A DNA stretch of 64,000 bases. It comes from Guyparkeria sp. SCN-R1. GTDB taxonomy: Bacteria > Pseudomonadota > Gammaproteobacteria > Halothiobacillales > Halothiobacillaceae. The stretch covers positions 186,001 to 250,000 of the forward strand of contig NZ_QZMT01000001.1 in the NCBI RefSeq assembly GCF_003932495.1, in the 5' to 3' direction. Of the stretch, positions 47,036-53,807 are shown in pieces. Each line of letters begins with the position of its first letter. Position 1 is the stretch's first letter. Both the position numbers and the translations under genes were made by a program. The notes beneath the pieces were generated by a model, which was not told the DNA's origin, did no database searches, and was given only the letters and a program-made list of their open reading frames with translations.

Positions 47036-47064
47036 AAAGGGCGGGCCCAACGGGTCCGCCCTTT
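47036..47064. terminator. Bidirectional terminator
   Basis: A 13-bp stem with one G-U pair (47036-47048 with 47052-47064), AAA at one end and TTT at the other, between the exported hydrolase gene and the convergent CBS gene. A second GC hairpin (47004-47010 with 47017-47023) precedes it. Confidence 0.85.
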
Positions 47065-47092: not shown

Positions 47093-47503
47093 CTATTCGT
47101 CGGCCTGCTCCAGGATCGCCCCGACGATATCGCTCATGGTGATCAGCCCGACGAGCTCGTCGTTCTTGAGCACGATCACTCGTCGGATGCCCTGCGAGAC
47201 CATCAGACGTGCCGCGTACTTAGTCTCCATGTTGCCGGGGACCGAGATCGCCGGCTTGTTCATCTCGTCGTAGACGTTGGCCATGTCGATATCGCCGTCC
47301 TCGGCGACGATGGCCTTGAGAATCGAGGTGTAGGTCAGGATGCCGTAGGCGTCGTGTTCGTGGGCCTTCTCGACCACCAGCGATTTCACACGCTTCTGGC
47401 GCATCAGCCGCAATGCCTCACGCAGGCTCGCCATGGGCGAGATGGTGACCACCTCGCGGTTCATCAGCTGTTCGACGAGTTGCGGTTGGTGCTCAGAGGT
47501 CAT
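47093..47503 (-). CDS. Two-CBS-domain protein
   Basis: 136 aa consisting of a CBS pair and nothing else: first CBS (VVTISPMASLREALRLMRQKRVKSLVV), second (AISVPGNMETKYAARLMVSQGIRRVIVL, then GLITMSDIVGAIL). Stand-alone CBS pairs bind adenosine nucleotides (AMP, ATP, SAM or cyclic di-AMP in other proteins). The ATG lies inside the end of the PII-like gene (11-base overlap), so the two are tightly coupled. Last gene of the DUF1538 operon; likely a soluble regulatory subunit of the permease (inference from context). Confidence 0.88.
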   Translation of the reverse strand: MTSEHQPQLVEQLMNREVVTISPMASLREALRLMRQKRVKSLVVEKAHEHDAYGILTYTSILKAIVAEDGDIDMANVYDEMNKPAISVPGNMETKYAARLMVSQGIRRVIVLKNDELVGLITMSDIVGAILEQADE

Positions 47504-47840
47504 CTTTTACATTCTCCTGGAAGCGTTTCACCTGTCCGGTCTCTATGCCGGCAATGTGCTCTATCGGCATGGTAAACACCACGCCCTTGGAGTGCTCGTT
47601 GAGCTCCAGTTCGCGGGTCAGCGCCTTCATTACCTTGAGCGACAGTGAGCGTTCGAGCACGAACAGCAGTACCGACTGGCTGCCCTCGTAGGTCAGGCCG
47701 AAGAAGGTCTTCTTCTCCTCGGCGCCGATGCCGCGTGCATCGAGCAGGGTAACCCCGCCGGCACCGGCGGCCTTGGCTACCTCGATAGCCTTTTCCTCCA
47801 TGTCCTCGGCAACCATTGCGGCCAGTACGGAAAATCTCAT
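47493..47840 (-). CDS. PII-like nitrogen-regulator family protein
   Basis: 115 aa ferredoxin-like fold of the GlnB/PII superfamily (GGVTLLDARGIGAEEKKTFF; VVFTMPIEHIAGI at the end, the position of the GlnB C-terminal signature). The T-loop is short and has no uridylylated Tyr51 equivalent, so it is not a classical GlnB/GlnK. PII-like proteins often bind adenine nucleotides and gate a neighbouring transporter, as GlnK does for AmtB and SbtB for SbtA. GAGGAC is 8 bases before the ATG; the DUF1538 gene ends 24 bases upstream. Confidence 0.82.
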   Translation of the reverse strand: MRFSVLAAMVAEDMEEKAIEVAKAAGAGGVTLLDARGIGAEEKKTFFGLTYEGSQSVLLFVLERSLSLKVMKALTRELELNEHSKGVVFTMPIEHIAGIETGQVKRFQENVKDDL

Positions 47841-47864
47841 CGCAGTAGGTCCTCTTCAGTCTGT

Positions 47865-49385
47865 CTATATGTCGGGTGGCGAGTCGGCCGCCCGACGCTT
47901 CGCCTGCCAGCGGTTTGTGTAGTCGGCCACGGTTGCATAGCCGAGCACGGTCACGATCGGGAAGATCGAGGCAAAGGCAATCAAACCGAAACCGTCCATC
48001 AGTGCATCGCGCCCCTCGATCTGGGTGGCAAGGCCAATGCCCAGCGCGGTGACCAGCGGCACGGTTACCTCAGAGGTGGTCACCCCGCCGAGATCATAGG
48101 CCAGCGCCACGATGTAGCGTGGGGCGAGGAAGGTCAGCAGGATCACCAGCGCGTAACCACCGATCACGTAATAGTGGATCGAGTCGCCCGCGATGATCCG
48201 GTGTACGCCAATGGTGATGCCGATGGCCACCCCGGCCGCGACCAGCAGCCGGATCACGTTGGCACGGATCTGCCCCTGGGCGGCCTGTTCGGCCTGGTCG
48301 CCGATCGCGATCAGGGCCGGCTCGGCCATGGTGGTGGCAAAGCCGATGGCGAAGGCGAACAGGTAGAGGAAGATCACGTTGTCGCGGGCGATCAGCTGGT
48401 CGGCCATGCGCTCGCCGATCGGGAACAGGCCTAGCTTGAGACCGATCACGAAGGCGTACAGGCCCAGGATGACCAGCAGAAAGCCGATCACCACGCGCTT
48501 GAGGTGTGGGATGCGCTGGCGGAGGATGGCCAGCTGGAAGAACAGTACGGCGGCGATGATCGGCAGCACGTCGCGGACCGTCACCAGGAGCCCCATGAGT
48601 ATGCCCATTGGGTCGAGGTTGGCCGACTTGGCGTCGTCCGGTTCGCCGAGGTCCAGGGCATCGGCCGCCAGGTCGACGCCGACGATCTCGAACACGTAGA
48701 TCCCATAGGCCTGCACGGTGATCATTGGCACCATCACCGCCAGCGCCACCAGGCCGAAGCCGTCTGAGAGGACGTTGCGGCCGCTGATCGAGGCGGCCAG
48801 CCCCATGCCCAGCGCGGCGATCAACGGCACGGTGACGATGTTGGTGGTCACGCCGCCTGAGTCGTAGGCCAGCCCGACGATCTCGGGCGGGGCGAACCAG
48901 GTGACGCTGACCACCGCGATGTAGCCGCCGATCATGAACCAGTGGATGGGCCAGCCGAGCAGGGTGCGCAACACCCCCAAGGCCACCACCAGCCCCACGG
49001 AGGTGGCGATTATCAGTCGCAGGGTCAGCGCATCGATGTGCCCCTGGCTGATGGTCTGTGCCTGCTCGGCCACCGCGATCAGGGCTGGCTCGGCGATGAC
49101 GGCGGCAAAGCCGAACGAAAAGCCGAAGCCCAGCAGCAGGGGCAGGGAGCCGCGCCGGGCAAAGGCGTTCGACAGGCTTTTGCCGATTGGGAAAATGCCC
49201 ATCTCCAGGCCCTGGAGAAACAGCGCCACCCCGACGACGACCCCCAAACCGATCAGGATGCCGGTCAACCCTTCGGGCACCGATTGCAGTACGAAAAGCT
49301 GGAACGCCGCGACCACCAGAATGATCGGCAGCAGGTTACGGCCGGCGTGTAACAGGGTGTTCCAGAATATCTTGATGTCCTGCAA
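47865..49385 (-). CDS. DUF1538 membrane protein, duplicated permease-like
   Basis: 506 aa, about 12 hydrophobic segments. It is an internal duplication with an offset of about 255 residues: AEPALIAVAEQAQ (about 97) matches AEPALIAIGDQAE (about 353), and AYDSGGVTTNIVTVP (about 174) matches AYDLGGVTTSEVTVP (about 430); GLEMGIFPIGKSLS and GLKLGLFPIGERMA also match. The conserved acidic and GGVTT motifs in membrane regions suggest a transport path. DUF1538 has no established substrate. Start is TTG 49385 with GGAG 11 bases upstream; no ATG or GTG lies upstream before a stop. First gene of the operon with PII-like and CBS genes. Confidence 0.85.
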   Translation of the reverse strand: MQDIKIFWNTLLHAGRNLLPIILVVAAFQLFVLQSVPEGLTGILIGLGVVVGVALFLQGLEMGIFPIGKSLSNAFARRGSLPLLLGFGFSFGFAAVIAEPALIAVAEQAQTISQGHIDALTLRLIIATSVGLVVALGVLRTLLGWPIHWFMIGGYIAVVSVTWFAPPEIVGLAYDSGGVTTNIVTVPLIAALGMGLAASISGRNVLSDGFGLVALAVMVPMITVQAYGIYVFEIVGVDLAADALDLGEPDDAKSANLDPMGILMGLLVTVRDVLPIIAAVLFFQLAILRQRIPHLKRVVIGFLLVILGLYAFVIGLKLGLFPIGERMADQLIARDNVIFLYLFAFAIGFATTMAEPALIAIGDQAEQAAQGQIRANVIRLLVAAGVAIGITIGVHRIIAGDSIHYYVIGGYALVILLTFLAPRYIVALAYDLGGVTTSEVTVPLVTALGIGLATQIEGRDALMDGFGLIAFASIFPIVTVLGYATVADYTNRWQAKRRAADSPPDI

Positions 49386-49521
49386 AACGACGTCGGCTCC
49401 AACGGTGGGCGTAGGCGGTCACAGTGCCGCAGGGTGGCCTGACGTTGCGTCTCGCTGGTGTCAGGCGGGTCGAGCAATGGTACCTTTTGTGAGATGACAA
49501 TGCCGAGACACGGAGCATCTT

Positions 49522-50421
49522 ATGGCCAAGCACCCGCCGATACTGGTCGCCAGCGATCTGTCCAATGCCAGCGAGGTCGCGGTGACCCGAGCGATGCAGA
49601 TGGCGTCGGGTCATGGCCACTCGTTGACCGTCTTGCACGTAATCCGGGAGGAGCCGTTGTGGTGGTTGGTCAAGAGCCGCGACGTTGACCCAGATGAGCT
49701 ACGCGGCGAGCTGCTGCGCGAGGCGCTGGCCGAGCTCGACTTGCAACTTGAGGGCGCGGCGGGGCAGTTGGCCATCGAGCCGCCCGAGTCAGAAGCCCAA
49801 GTGCGATTGGGTAAGCCGGCCGCCGTCATCAACGACATGTCGTCGTCTATCGAGGCGTGTCTGATCGTGGTGGGGGCCCACGGTCGTCACGCGGTGCGCG
49901 ACTGGTTCATCGGCACCACCGCGGAGAAGGTGGTACGTGCCGGCAACGTGCCGGTGCTGGTCGCCCGGGTCGAGCCCACCCACAGTTACCAGAAGGTGGT
50001 GGTGGCGGTGGACTTCTCCGAGTCCAGTCGTGCCGCCCTGCGGGAAGCACTCGCCTGGGTACCACGGGCGCAGTTCACCCTGGTGCATGCCTACGAGACC
50101 TGGTTGCCCACCCACGTTGATGCGTCGACCTACGAGCGCCTTCAGCGCGAAGAAGAGGGTTTGCTACGTGACCGGTTGCGCCAATTTGCCCACGAGGCGG
50201 GGGTGCACAGCGAACACGAGCCGGATTATCGCGTGCTTCCCGGCCCACCAGGCGCCACCGTGGCAAATGCCGCGGTGAATGCCCATGCCGATCTCACCGT
50301 CTGTGGCACGCAGGGCGAGACCGGCCTGCGTCACCTGCTGCTCGGCAGCGTCGCCCAGCACATCCTGCGCGAATCCAAGGGCGACGTGCTGACCGTGCGC
50401 GCCGGTGGTACAACGGGCTGA
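49522..50421 (+). CDS. Tandem universal stress protein (UspA-UspA)
   Basis: 299 aa made of two Usp domains (about 1-150 and 152-297). The ATP-binding signature G2xG9xGS/T is present in both: GAHGRHAVRDWFIGTTAEKV and GTQGETGLRHLLLGSVAQHI. GGAG is 7 bases before the ATG. It is divergent from the DUF1538 operon with about 135 bases between, so shared control is plausible. Usp proteins bind ATP and often accompany ion transporters; a link to the DUF1538 permease is inference. Confidence 0.9.
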   Translation: MAKHPPILVASDLSNASEVAVTRAMQMASGHGHSLTVLHVIREEPLWWLVKSRDVDPDELRGELLREALAELDLQLEGAAGQLAIEPPESEAQVRLGKPAAVINDMSSSIEACLIVVGAHGRHAVRDWFIGTTAEKVVRAGNVPVLVARVEPTHSYQKVVVAVDFSESSRAALREALAWVPRAQFTLVHAYETWLPTHVDASTYERLQREEEGLLRDRLRQFAHEAGVHSEHEPDYRVLPGPPGATVANAAVNAHADLTVCGTQGETGLRHLLLGSVAQHILRESKGDVLTVRAGGTTG

Positions 50422-50548
50422 TCGGCGGCCCAGTCGGTCGCCCAATCGGTAGCTACAGCACTCGATACCGGCGGGATTTCCTTTACAACGGCCGGGTCGG
50501 GTGCTTGATTTGACCGATGCCCGCCCACCCGTCGACGAGGAATCCCCC

Positions 50549-51490
50549 ATGCTGATCTACAGCCACCCGGTCTGCTGGAAGCACGTAAACGAGAACGACG
50601 TCATGCTGCCGCACCCGGAGCGCCCCGAGCGCCTGGATGCCGTGATGGCGGCCATCGACCGCTTTCCGGCCGATCGGCACACGCGGGTCGAGGCCCCGTT
50701 GGGCGACAAGAGCGACTACGAGCTGGCCCATGACCCGCGCTACGTCGAGGCGATCTTCAGCCAGGCGCCGACAGCCGGCGATTTCCAGGCGTTGCGGGTC
50801 GATGGCGACACCTCGCTCAACGAGTACACCATCGAGGCCAGTCGGCGGGTGGTGGGCGCGGCCAAGGCGGCGATCGATGCCGTGCTGCCGGGGCCCGAGC
50901 GCCGCGCCTTTCTCGCCACCCGCCCGCCGGGCCATCATGCCGGGCCCTGCCAGCCGCGCGGGTTCTGCGTGTTCAACAACGTCTCGATCGCGGCCTACTA
51001 CGCCATCCGTCACCATGGCCTCGAGCGGGTGGCGATCGTCGATTTCGACGTCCACCACGGCGACGGCACCGAGGAGATCGTCGCCAACAGCGACGCGGTG
51101 CGCTTCTTCTCGATCTTCCAGCACCCGTACTACCCGTACGCGGGCATCCCGCCGATCGCCGACAACTGCTTCCCGATCGGCCTGCCCAACATGACCGATG
51201 GCAAGGCGTTCCGACAGGGGGTGCGCGACTCGGTCTGGTTCGAGACGCTGCGCGAGTTCCGCCCGCAGCTGCTGCTGTTCTCCGCGGGTTTCGACGCCCA
51301 CAAGAACGATCCACTGGGCGGCTGGATCCTCGAGGACGAGGACTTCGCCTGGATCACCCGCGAGGTGATCGCCGCGGCCGGCGGGGACGACCTGCCGGTG
51401 GTCTCCCTGCTGGAGGGTGGCTACGACCTGGAGGGCCTGGAAGACTCGGTGCTCGCGCACCTCAAGGCCCTGGACGGGGATGCCGGCTGA
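50549..51490 (+). CDS. Histone-deacetylase-like amidohydrolase
   Basis: 313 aa class II HDAC/acetylpolyamine amidohydrolase family. Zinc and catalytic motifs: TRPPGHHAGPC (His pair), FCVFNNVSIAA, IVDFDVHHGDGTEE (zinc ligands), and SAGFDAHKNDPLGG. Bacterial members deacetylate polyamines or proteins. GAGGAA lies 7 bases before ATG 50549; an upstream in-frame TTG at 50501 is less likely. The stop overlaps the start of the next gene by 11 bases. Confidence 0.9.
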   Translation: MLIYSHPVCWKHVNENDVMLPHPERPERLDAVMAAIDRFPADRHTRVEAPLGDKSDYELAHDPRYVEAIFSQAPTAGDFQALRVDGDTSLNEYTIEASRRVVGAAKAAIDAVLPGPERRAFLATRPPGHHAGPCQPRGFCVFNNVSIAAYYAIRHHGLERVAIVDFDVHHGDGTEEIVANSDAVRFFSIFQHPYYPYAGIPPIADNCFPIGLPNMTDGKAFRQGVRDSVWFETLREFRPQLLLFSAGFDAHKNDPLGGWILEDEDFAWITREVIAAAGGDDLPVVSLLEGGYDLEGLEDSVLAHLKALDGDAG

Positions 51491-52079: not shown

Positions 52080-53807
52080 TCAGGTCTCTTCGCGGAACTT
52101 GAGGCCCACCTGCGTGATCGTGGGTCCGTCCATCTCGCGCACGGTCAGGCTGACGCGATCGAGGTCGACCGAATCGCCCACGACCGGCGGGTTGCGCAAC
52201 AGCGACTTGATCGCCTCGTCGAGGGTCGCCTCCTGCAACGCCTCGGGCGGTTGGATGCCGTAGACCTGGGCGAGATCGGCGATCCGCGCCCCGCCACGCA
52301 GCGAGAAGGCACCGAAGAACGTCTGCTCGGCGAGCGCCGCCTTCTTGCGCCGTTCGCCGGTGAAGAAGCGGTTGAGGTCGTTGATCATGTCTTCGGGGAT
52401 GATGGTCAGCACGATATCGCCGGCCTGGAAGCGAAAGCCGCGCTCTGCCTTGCGCAACGCGAGGTTGCGCACCACGCCGGCGACCGTGACCGATTCGCCG
52501 AACGGCAGCCGGTCGAGGCCGGCGCCGTCGGCGTCCGTGTGCTCGCCCACCACGAACTGCACCATCTCCAGGCGCGGTTCGATCGGCAGGTTCAGATCGG
52601 CGCGCTGGCGTGGCTCGGCCAGCGGCGGCACCTCGACCTTGAGCAGGCGCGCGGCCAACGGCACCGTGCTGCCCTGGATCAACAACGAGGTGATCACCAC
52701 CACGTAGGCGATCTCGAAGAAGCGTTCGGCATCCGGGATGCCGTAGATCATCGGGAACAGGGCCAGCACGATCGGCACCGCGCCACGCAGGCCCACCCAG
52801 GCGATGAAGGTGGTCTCCCGCCAGTTGAAGTGAAACGGCCACAGCCCGATCCAGATCGCGATCGGGCGGGCGACCAGCAGCAGGGCGAAGGCGAGGATCA
52901 GCGCCGGGACGATCTGGTCGAGCACCGCCGTGGGCGTGACCAACAGACCCAGGATCAGGAACATGCCCGCCTGCGCCAGCCAGGCCAGCCCGTCCATGAT
53001 GCGCAGGACGTGGAAGGTGCCACGGTTGCGTGCCGTGCCGATCACCAGCCCGGTGAGATAGACGCCGAGGAACCCGCTGCCGCCGAGCTCGTTGATCAGC
53101 GCGAACGACAGCAAGCCCCCCGAGGCGATCAAGAGCGCATAGAGCCCCTCGGCCAGTTCGATCCGCCGCAGCACCTCGCGCAGGAGAAAGCCGAAGGCCA
53201 CGCCCAGCACCGCGCCGATGCCGAACTGCTGGACCAGGAAGACCAGGATCCACGGGTCGAGCAGGGATTGGCCGGCCGAGATCACCTCGAGCAGGGTGAT
53301 GGTGAGGAAGATCGCCATCGGGTCGTTGATGCCCGACTCGATCTCGAGCGTCGAGCCGACCCGTTCGTTCAGCCGCGTGCCGCTGCCCTTCAACAACGAG
53401 AAGACCGCCGCGGCATCCGTCGAGCCGATGATCGCCCCCATCAGCAGCCCGTAGTACCAGTCGAAGCCCATCAGCCAGGTGGCCAGCGCGCCCATGGCCC
53501 CGGCGGTGATCATGACGCCGACGGTCGCCAGGGACACGGCGGGCCTGAGGGCGACGCGGAAGGTGCGGATATGCGTGCGCAGGCCGCCGTCGAGCAGGAT
53601 GATCGCCAGCGCGAGGTTGCCGATCAGGAAGGCGGTCTGGAAATCGTCGAACACCACGCCGCCGACGCCGTCCTGGCCGGCAAGCATGCCGACGCCGAGA
53701 AAGATCAGCAGCAGCGGGAAGCCGAACCGCGACGAGGCCATGCCGGCAAGGATGCTGGTGAACAGCAGCAGGGCGCCGAGCAAGATAAACGAGTTGGTCG
53801 CGTCCAT
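52080..53807 (-). CDS. nhaP2: K+/H+ (CPA1) antiporter with TrkA-C and CorC-like domains
   Basis: 575 aa. About 12-13 helices (1-390) with CPA1 signatures (TDAAAVFSLLKGSG; ESGINDPMAIFLT carries the ND ion-binding pair; VGLRGAVPIVLALFPM). A TrkA-C domain follows (about 400-485; ESVTVAGVVRNLAL, FRFQAGDIVLTIIP) and a CorC/HlyC-like module ends it (about 490-575). This matches NhaP2/CvrA, which exports K+ or Na+ for volume and pH control. It ends 1 base from the converging glycosylase gene. Its 5' side carries a short MITE-like copy. Confidence 0.93.
   Translation of the reverse strand: MDATNSFILLGALLLFTSILAGMASSRFGFPLLLIFLGVGMLAGQDGVGGVVFDDFQTAFLIGNLALAIILLDGGLRTHIRTFRVALRPAVSLATVGVMITAGAMGALATWLMGFDWYYGLLMGAIIGSTDAAAVFSLLKGSGTRLNERVGSTLEIESGINDPMAIFLTITLLEVISAGQSLLDPWILVFLVQQFGIGAVLGVAFGFLLREVLRRIELAEGLYALLIASGGLLSFALINELGGSGFLGVYLTGLVIGTARNRGTFHVLRIMDGLAWLAQAGMFLILGLLVTPTAVLDQIVPALILAFALLLVARPIAIWIGLWPFHFNWRETTFIAWVGLRGAVPIVLALFPMIYGIPDAERFFEIAYVVVITSLLIQGSTVPLAARLLKVEVPPLAEPRQRADLNLPIEPRLEMVQFVVGEHTDADGAGLDRLPFGESVTVAGVVRNLALRKAERGFRFQAGDIVLTIIPEDMINDLNRFFTGERRKKAALAEQTFFGAFSLRGGARIADLAQVYGIQPPEALQEATLDEAIKSLLRNPPVVGDSVDLDRVSLTVREMDGPTITQVGLKFREET

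Follow-up and report, generated by a model that had tools for sequence, protein, structure and literature searches.

Nitrogen and carbon sensing is what PII proteins are chiefly known for. UmpAB of Halomonas zhaodongensis is a Na+(Li+,K+)/H+ antiporter whose activity is optimal at pH 9, and its full function requires both subunits (PMC5484666, 2017). In SbtA-SbtB the SbtB trimer docks on the SbtA trimer with its T-loop in a cleft (PMC8352866). PII-NG clusters with Czc (PMC7726332). We consider a stretch of 64,000 nucleotides from Guyparkeria sp. SCN-R1 (contig NZ_QZMT01000001.1, positions 186,001 to 250,000), called the window throughout. It holds a gene for a protein with two DUF1538 repeats, followed by genes for a PII-like protein and a CBS pair. 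We argue that this is probably a monovalent-cation/H+ antiporter with its own PII-like regulator, which would dock on it and set its activity. The association of PII-like genes with DUF1538 is nearly universal, close to absolute. The features of the locus are the following.

47865-49385, minus strand: fused UmpA-UmpB antiporter with two DUF1538 repeats, as assigned by Pfam and NCBIfam; 506 amino acids, TTG start
47493-47840, minus strand: PII-like protein, the conserved partner of DUF1538; 115 amino acids, Pfam P-II, predicted PII fold
47093-47503, minus strand: stand-alone CBS pair; 136 amino acids, two Pfam CBS domains
47036-47064, minus strand: likely operon terminator just 3' of the CBS gene, a hairpin followed by a U run
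49522-50421, plus strand: tandem Usp protein, a divergent neighbour judged to lie outside the system; 299 amino acids, two Pfam Usp domains

The DUF1538, PII-like and CBS genes are one operon. The gap between the first two is 24 bases (47841-47864), and the second and third overlap by 11 bases (47493-47503). A first-pass annotation made from the sequence alone had described this contiguous order with a divergent tandem UspA gene. The open reading frame (ORF) positions and Pfam agree with it: DUF1538 is found twice (1.2e-131), P-II (1.9e-07), CBS twice (7.2e-25) and Usp twice (1.1e-49). The terminator hairpin was located by reading and folding (RNA fold -20.4 kcal/mol, z -3.42) and is missing from the output of a simple pattern-based terminator scan. 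The same annotation reported duplicated AEPAL and GGVTT motifs in the permease. Both are there in two copies, AEPAL at residues 98-102 and 354-358 and GGVTT at residues 177-181 and 433-437. Its idea of a two-repeat membrane carrier beside PII-like and CBS genes is supported. The closest named relative found is another Guyparkeria genome (L079), with a DUF1538 identity of 89%.

The NCBIfam UmpA model fits the N-terminal half of the window protein best, and the UmpB model fits the C-terminal half. Because of this fit, and because antiport by the Halomonas UmpAB is published, the window gene belongs, on sequence evidence, to an antiporter family that has been characterised, here in fused form. 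The first-pass annotation had called it an uncharacterised transporter. That description has to be given up, since Na+(Li+,K+)/H+ antiport by the DUF1538 family has been in print since 2017 (PMC5484666). Cation homeostasis, proposed alongside it, is supported as the likely role. The UmpAB clone was a 4.2-kb fragment with ORF1 to ORF4, the last two being umpA and umpB; antiport of Na+, Li+ and K+ was measured together with salt and alkali tolerance. A word search of that paper gives no PII and no CBS. A table of pH-adaptation features also includes DUF1538, together with Mrp, TrkH and K_trans (PMC13255231).

The distribution of both gene families was examined in an even sample of 370 genomes from the window's class, each with a completeness of at least 90. 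The PII-like family was searched by profile at E <= 1e-8. DUF1538 is present in 127 genomes and the PII-like family in 128. Both are found in 126 and neither in 241, while DUF1538 stands alone in one genome (G390) and PII-like in two (G111 and G196), giving a phi of 0.98. All three that disagree are draft assemblies, with roughly 390, 560 and 410 contigs. Adjacency was counted from either side. On the PII side the best PII locus of each of 127 PII-positive genomes was used, the window's own genome excluded, and each locus spans the PII gene +/- 4 kb. DUF1538 is present in 122 of these loci, and in 120 it lies on the same strand no more than 500 nucleotides upstream. Among the other seven, DUF1538 is elsewhere in the locus in L185 and L272, the contig ends 120-513 nucleotides upstream of PII in L189, L250 and L283, and the last two are weighed below. 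Counts anchored on DUF1538 are free of the bias of the PII profile. The named loci, which carry flanks of up to 6 kb, have a PII domain in 76 of 80 cases, and the four misses have a contig end within 23 bases of the DUF1538 end. A second set of 78 loci, often two to a genome, includes those supplied from a phylum sample in which 82 of 299 genomes have DUF1538. PII is present in 73 of them, and the five misses are contig ends within 176 bases. The locus sets overlap in part (L079 and L007 are the same contig, as are L080 and L004), and their counts are not summed.

PII genes adjoin DUF1538 in three phyla: Pseudomonadota, Campylobacterota and Actinomycetota. In a sample of 246 Actinomycetota genomes there were 17 DUF1538 matches at E <= 0.001, of which 16 passed the Pfam cut-off, and PII accompanies DUF1538 in all 16 of those genomes. 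The genome left out, G899, has neither DUF1538 nor PII by our own profiles. PII is likewise found with DUF1538 in 21 of 21 cases in a sample of 150 Campylobacterota genomes. Locus L370, at a contig end, was counted through L378, which is on the other contig of its genome. Within the Halomonas group 44 of 81 genomes have UmpA-profile matches, and a PII-like gene follows umpB in every one of the best 25 umpA-type loci examined. The first-pass annotation would have been refuted by DUF1538 genes elsewhere that keep no company with PII or CBS genes. Neighbourhood counts give a nearly universal association for PII, and for CBS one that is common, not universal.

The partnership also persists through changes in the antiporter itself. 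DUF1538 may be split over two genes or fused into one; there is also a longer, divergent fused form and a single half, and PII is kept in every form. The single half (open frames of 249-280 amino acids) is found with PII in five genomes of the Actinomycetota sample (L372-L376), where it is possibly a homomeric antiporter. Among the 80 named loci, 11 encode an in-frame DUF1538-DUF1538-PII fusion with the PII domain at its C terminus, and these 11 are all from Campylobacterota. The same kind of fusion is seen in 8 of 21 genomes of the Campylobacterota sample, at least one of which is common to both sets. Class loci of the divergent type have a second detectable PII-like domain in 6 of 13 cases. 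As separate observations, five loci (L082, L105, L109, L119 and L120) have PII-like genes on both sides of the fused DUF1538, the usual copy downstream and a second, diverged one upstream, and L218 has three successive DUF1538 halves followed by PII and CBS genes.

The PII-like protein of the window scores 31.8 bits against Pfam P-II, above the cut-off of 25. Its model, built from a 48-row alignment, shows a PII fold at a predicted local distance difference test (pLDDT) of 82.8, with part of the T-loop below 50. The nearest solved folds, among the matches listed, are TTHA0516, SbtB, PII and CPII, with Foldseek E values between 6e-6 and 9e-5. A model of a natural fusion has a pLDDT of 86.9 overall, lower in stretches of the PII domain. 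That domain aligns to SbtB, TTHA0516 and GlnK-type chains with Z of 10.3-11.5 and a root-mean-square deviation of 2.0-3.7 over 80-103 aligned residues; for the top three matches Z is 11.5 and the deviation 2.1-3.7 over 83-103 residues. We predict with fair confidence that the PII-like protein has the ferredoxin-like PII fold.

The same fold does not imply the same residues. In canonical GlnB and GlnK, K90, R101 and R103 contact the ATP phosphates, and the T-loop carries the uridylylated Tyr51. We aligned the 197 strong members among 262 domain hits to the GlnK-like protein of the window's own genome (L398). The roles of the compared columns (ATP-binding Lys, Arg contacts, adenine-side Thr and tyrosine) are taken to be those of the GlnK positions. 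The K90 column is I, L, V, M, F or Y in all 197 members, and the R101 column is Gly in all 197. The R103 column is Arg in 2 and otherwise mostly D, A, S or T. The uridylylated tyrosine is replaced by Phe in 194. Judged from this alignment, the canonical ATP-phosphate and uridylylation residues are lost in the strong members of the family, which we call the Ump type. Since both defining features that we compared, the phosphate contacts and the tyrosine, are absent, this is a PII-like protein and not GlnB or GlnK. The first-pass annotation had inferred a nucleotide sensor, which stays a putative role: the basic phosphate contacts are lost, while all 197 members retain the adenine-side Thr. The T-loop is short and hydrophobic (KTFFGL), and F46 and G48 are each conserved in 194 members and L49 in 174.

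The window's genome (2.4 Mb) has five PII-family genes (L398-L402), and four of them lie beside a transporter gene: an ammonium transporter, DabA, an RND pump and DUF1538. In a tree the genome's own GlnK, GlnB and RND-linked copies separate from the Ump type with support 100/100; the DabA-linked copy has a long branch, and its position is unsure. Paralogues were also examined at 13 further PII-like loci, five of which are without DUF1538 (L286, L287, L288, L293 and L297); PII paralogues of G174, G259, G121 and G311 lie outside this set. In L287 (4004-6383) a CPA2-type antiporter (PF00999 and TrkA_N) follows the PII-like gene. A CPA2 gene also lies downstream of PII in L189, where the contig ends 120 nucleotides upstream, and in L231, which has DUF1538 upstream and no CBS. 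In L293 (4001-6046) the neighbour of tandem PII-like genes encodes a protein that combines SBP_bac_3, Lig_chan and ion-channel domains, and it is possible that this PII pair controls an ion channel. L288 has a PII pair resembling that of L293; one ORF of L288 was searched against Pfam and gave no match. The neighbours in L286, L288 and L297 were left out, as gene calls in these high-GC loci gave antisense ORFs in places.

The CBS pair has a looser tie to the antiporter. Among the 114 strong-type class loci (PII score of at least 95 bits), 111 have it immediately after the PII-like gene. It is present in 63 of the 80 named loci, and the 17 without it are the 11 fusions and six loci at contig ends. 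The ribose motif of nucleotide-binding CBS domains is [ST]xx[DN]. Its two key columns, counted separately, are mostly kept in the second CBS domain, with S or T in 164 of 183 sequences and D or N in 166 of 183. The first CBS domain of the window lacks the D/N of the motif (TYTS).

We argue that a direct, dedicated regulator is the best reading of the PII-like protein because of its linkage, its fusions and its predicted fold. The operon would yield a fused UmpA-UmpB monovalent-cation/H+ antiporter and, with it, the regulator. Most likely as a trimer, the PII-like protein would dock on the cytosolic face of the antiporter. A small-molecule signal would then make it raise or lower exchange through the T-loop. 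Since the fusions have one PII per antiporter chain and PII proteins are trimeric, a UmpAB trimer would sit under a PII trimer. In most Pseudomonadota and Campylobacterota loci the CBS pair may be a second cytosolic sensor, adding an input of its own. UmpAB is active in E. coli without a co-cloned partner, and therefore the partner would tune transport and be dispensable for it. One can imagine a wider scheme, which we put forward tentatively and rate somewhat below even chances. In it a separate PII subfamily would serve monovalent-cation transport. Its targets would be UmpAB and, for the paralogues, an antiporter of the Kef-like CPA2 kind and an ion channel of the ligand-gated type. PII trimers would sit on antiporter trimers, a cell-state signal other than ATP or 2-oxoglutarate would set exchange, and CBS would give a second input, dispensable when PII is fused.

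Several results weigh against a dedicated regulator of this kind, or against the counts and models behind it. UmpAB complements E. coli KNabc with neither PII-like nor CBS genes co-cloned (PMC5484666). The first-pass annotation had named a published substrate transported without such regulators as something that would speak against it, and this is found in part: the PII-like and CBS proteins can only modulate. It must be noted that DUF1538-linked sequences went into the PII profile, which biases the PII-anchored counts to linked members. L183 and L254 (2 of 127) have 1.4-1.5 kb upstream of PII without DUF1538, and a DUF1538 match is wholly lacking in the PII-only genomes G111 and G196. Co-divergence counts in favour of the reading: in 167 loci with all parts, the distances of both DUF1538 halves, PII and CBS are correlated at 0.78-0.93 and none of 300 shuffles came near, but these statistics ignore kinship as given by the species tree. 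The template modelling scores of the PII-like model are modest (0.49-0.60 by query, Foldseek). As a whole the window protein scores 443.8 bits against UmpA and 389.5 against UmpB, under the equivalog cut-offs of 490 and 500, so it is a member of the DUF1538/UmpAB family and not a certified equivalog. In a six-frame search none of the 81 Halomonas-group genomes passes the UmpA cut-off either, the best reaching 446 bits. Nor is the CBS gene general. It is found in 0 of the 13 divergent-type class loci and beside none of the PII-fused antiporters. Only 1 of 16 genomes of the Actinomycetota sample has it (L133), besides another named Actinomycetota locus, L132. A partial CBS gene is seen in 13 of the 25 Halomonas-group loci, and the other 12 are without one in the roughly 350 nucleotides covered after PII.

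Adjacency and fusion also leave gating open to alternatives, as the PII-like protein could help assembly or carry a signal from the membrane. In such a scenario it binds UmpAB as an assembly or stability subunit, or is recruited to the membrane to relay an ion or pH signal, much as membrane sequestration of GlnK is known for AmtB-GlnK. Universal linkage and fusions are equally expected from a fixed subunit, and a protein without the GlnK phosphate residues need not sense ATP. However, E. coli produced active UmpAB in its absence (PMC5484666), and the strong conservation of the T-loop points to a target contact. We think a partner of this kind, binding without gating, is rather improbable. One might instead question the substrate. 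If Na+/K+ exchange for H+ were a side activity of one Halomonas pair in E. coli, the true substrate of this DUF1538 clade would be another solute and PII and CBS would control its transport. A single study testing DUF1538 function was found, and the window protein lies below both equivalog cut-offs. The fusion model also has long but weak Foldseek matches, among them a dicarboxylate/sodium symporter (E 0.015) and EAAT3 (E 0.019), at template modelling scores of 0.12-0.22. The Na+, Li+ and K+ antiport with salt and alkali tolerance reported for UmpAB argues against this (PMC5484666), as do the listing of DUF1538 with Mrp, TrkH and K_trans (PMC13255231) and the PII-like paralogues that adjoin a CPA2 antiporter and an ion-channel-type protein. 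We consider another substrate unlikely.

The first-pass annotation had allowed for UspA as a third sensor. A Usp gene does lie upstream of DUF1538 in 6 of the 7 same-genus genomes that have DUF1538 (G005 is without it in 1.4 kb upstream), and at one other class locus, L271, a weaker Usp match occupies the equivalent divergent position. Linkage is lacking elsewhere. A window-like Usp is found in 4 of 140 class loci, one of the same genus (484 bits) and three weak (15, 41 and 70 bits), and in 4 of 80 named loci, two of the same genus and two weak. A role in the system is thus very improbable, and we reject Usp as a part of it since its linkage is mainly within the window's genus. That the gene order is accidental, a product of hitch-hiking with no functional meaning, is hardly credible at all when PII is kept across three phyla and through split, fused and half-size forms of DUF1538 at a phi of 0.98. 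The most probable reading is still the antiporter with its own docked PII-like regulator.

Other candidates were considered. A fold assignment for the DUF1538 part was dropped, because the structure-match lists (Foldseek, VIA) of the natural-fusion model are dominated by the PII domain and its other long matches are weak (4f35, EAAT3 and CLC7, E 0.013-0.019). The PDB gave no sequence relative of DUF1538 at E <= 1. By rough gene calls, no other neighbour family goes beyond 13 of 140 loci. Within the window, 2.7 kb from the DUF1538 start, there is a Na_H_Exchanger protein with CorC_HlyC and a TrkA_C match below its cut-off (52080-53807). This CPA-type exchanger has matches in only 2 of 80 named loci, one of the same genus, and is taken as unrelated. 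It also has matches in 2 of 142 class loci, which is a weak test as over 4 kb separate it from the PII-like gene and the loci reach +/- 4 kb. The gene for a histone-deacetylase-domain protein (50501-51490) follows the Usp gene in the same orientation.

The link between PII and DUF1538 is new as far as we found, while DUF1538 antiport is already published. No paper linking the two was found among the matches listed in open-licence full text, which is no proof of absence. If our reading is true, PII control, tied to Na+(K+)/H+ exchange across three phyla, would extend to pH and salt homeostasis. The sole study of DUF1538 function found was run without the linked regulator. The split, fused and PII-fused forms are ready material for structural work.

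Among known systems, UmpAB of H. zhaodongensis has the same DUF1538 family and repeat pair as the window protein. It is encoded by two genes there and by one fused gene here. It was assayed without a PII partner, and the 25 of 25 count for PII belongs to the Halomonas group, not specifically to H. zhaodongensis. By analogy, the layout of DUF1538 and PII is like that of SbtA-SbtB or AmtB-GlnK. A PII-like gene stands beside the transporter gene in SbtA-SbtB as well, and SbtB is among the nearest solved folds of the window's PII-like protein. However, SbtA is of another transporter family with another substrate, the T-loop here is short, and natural fusions exist for DUF1538. Docking has been seen for SbtA-SbtB, whereas DUF1538-PII is known from genes and predicted models. 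AmtB-GlnK also pairs PII with a transporter, and the window's genome has its own GlnK-like gene beside an ammonium transporter. In the Ump type, however, the GlnK tyrosine is Phe and other residues stand in place of the K/R phosphate contacts. PII-NG with CzcABC/CusA and CPII with DabA are likewise PII paralogues tied to one transporter. The copies that adjoin the RND pump and DabA in the window's genome bear these names as labels from context. Both are subfamilies different from the Ump type.

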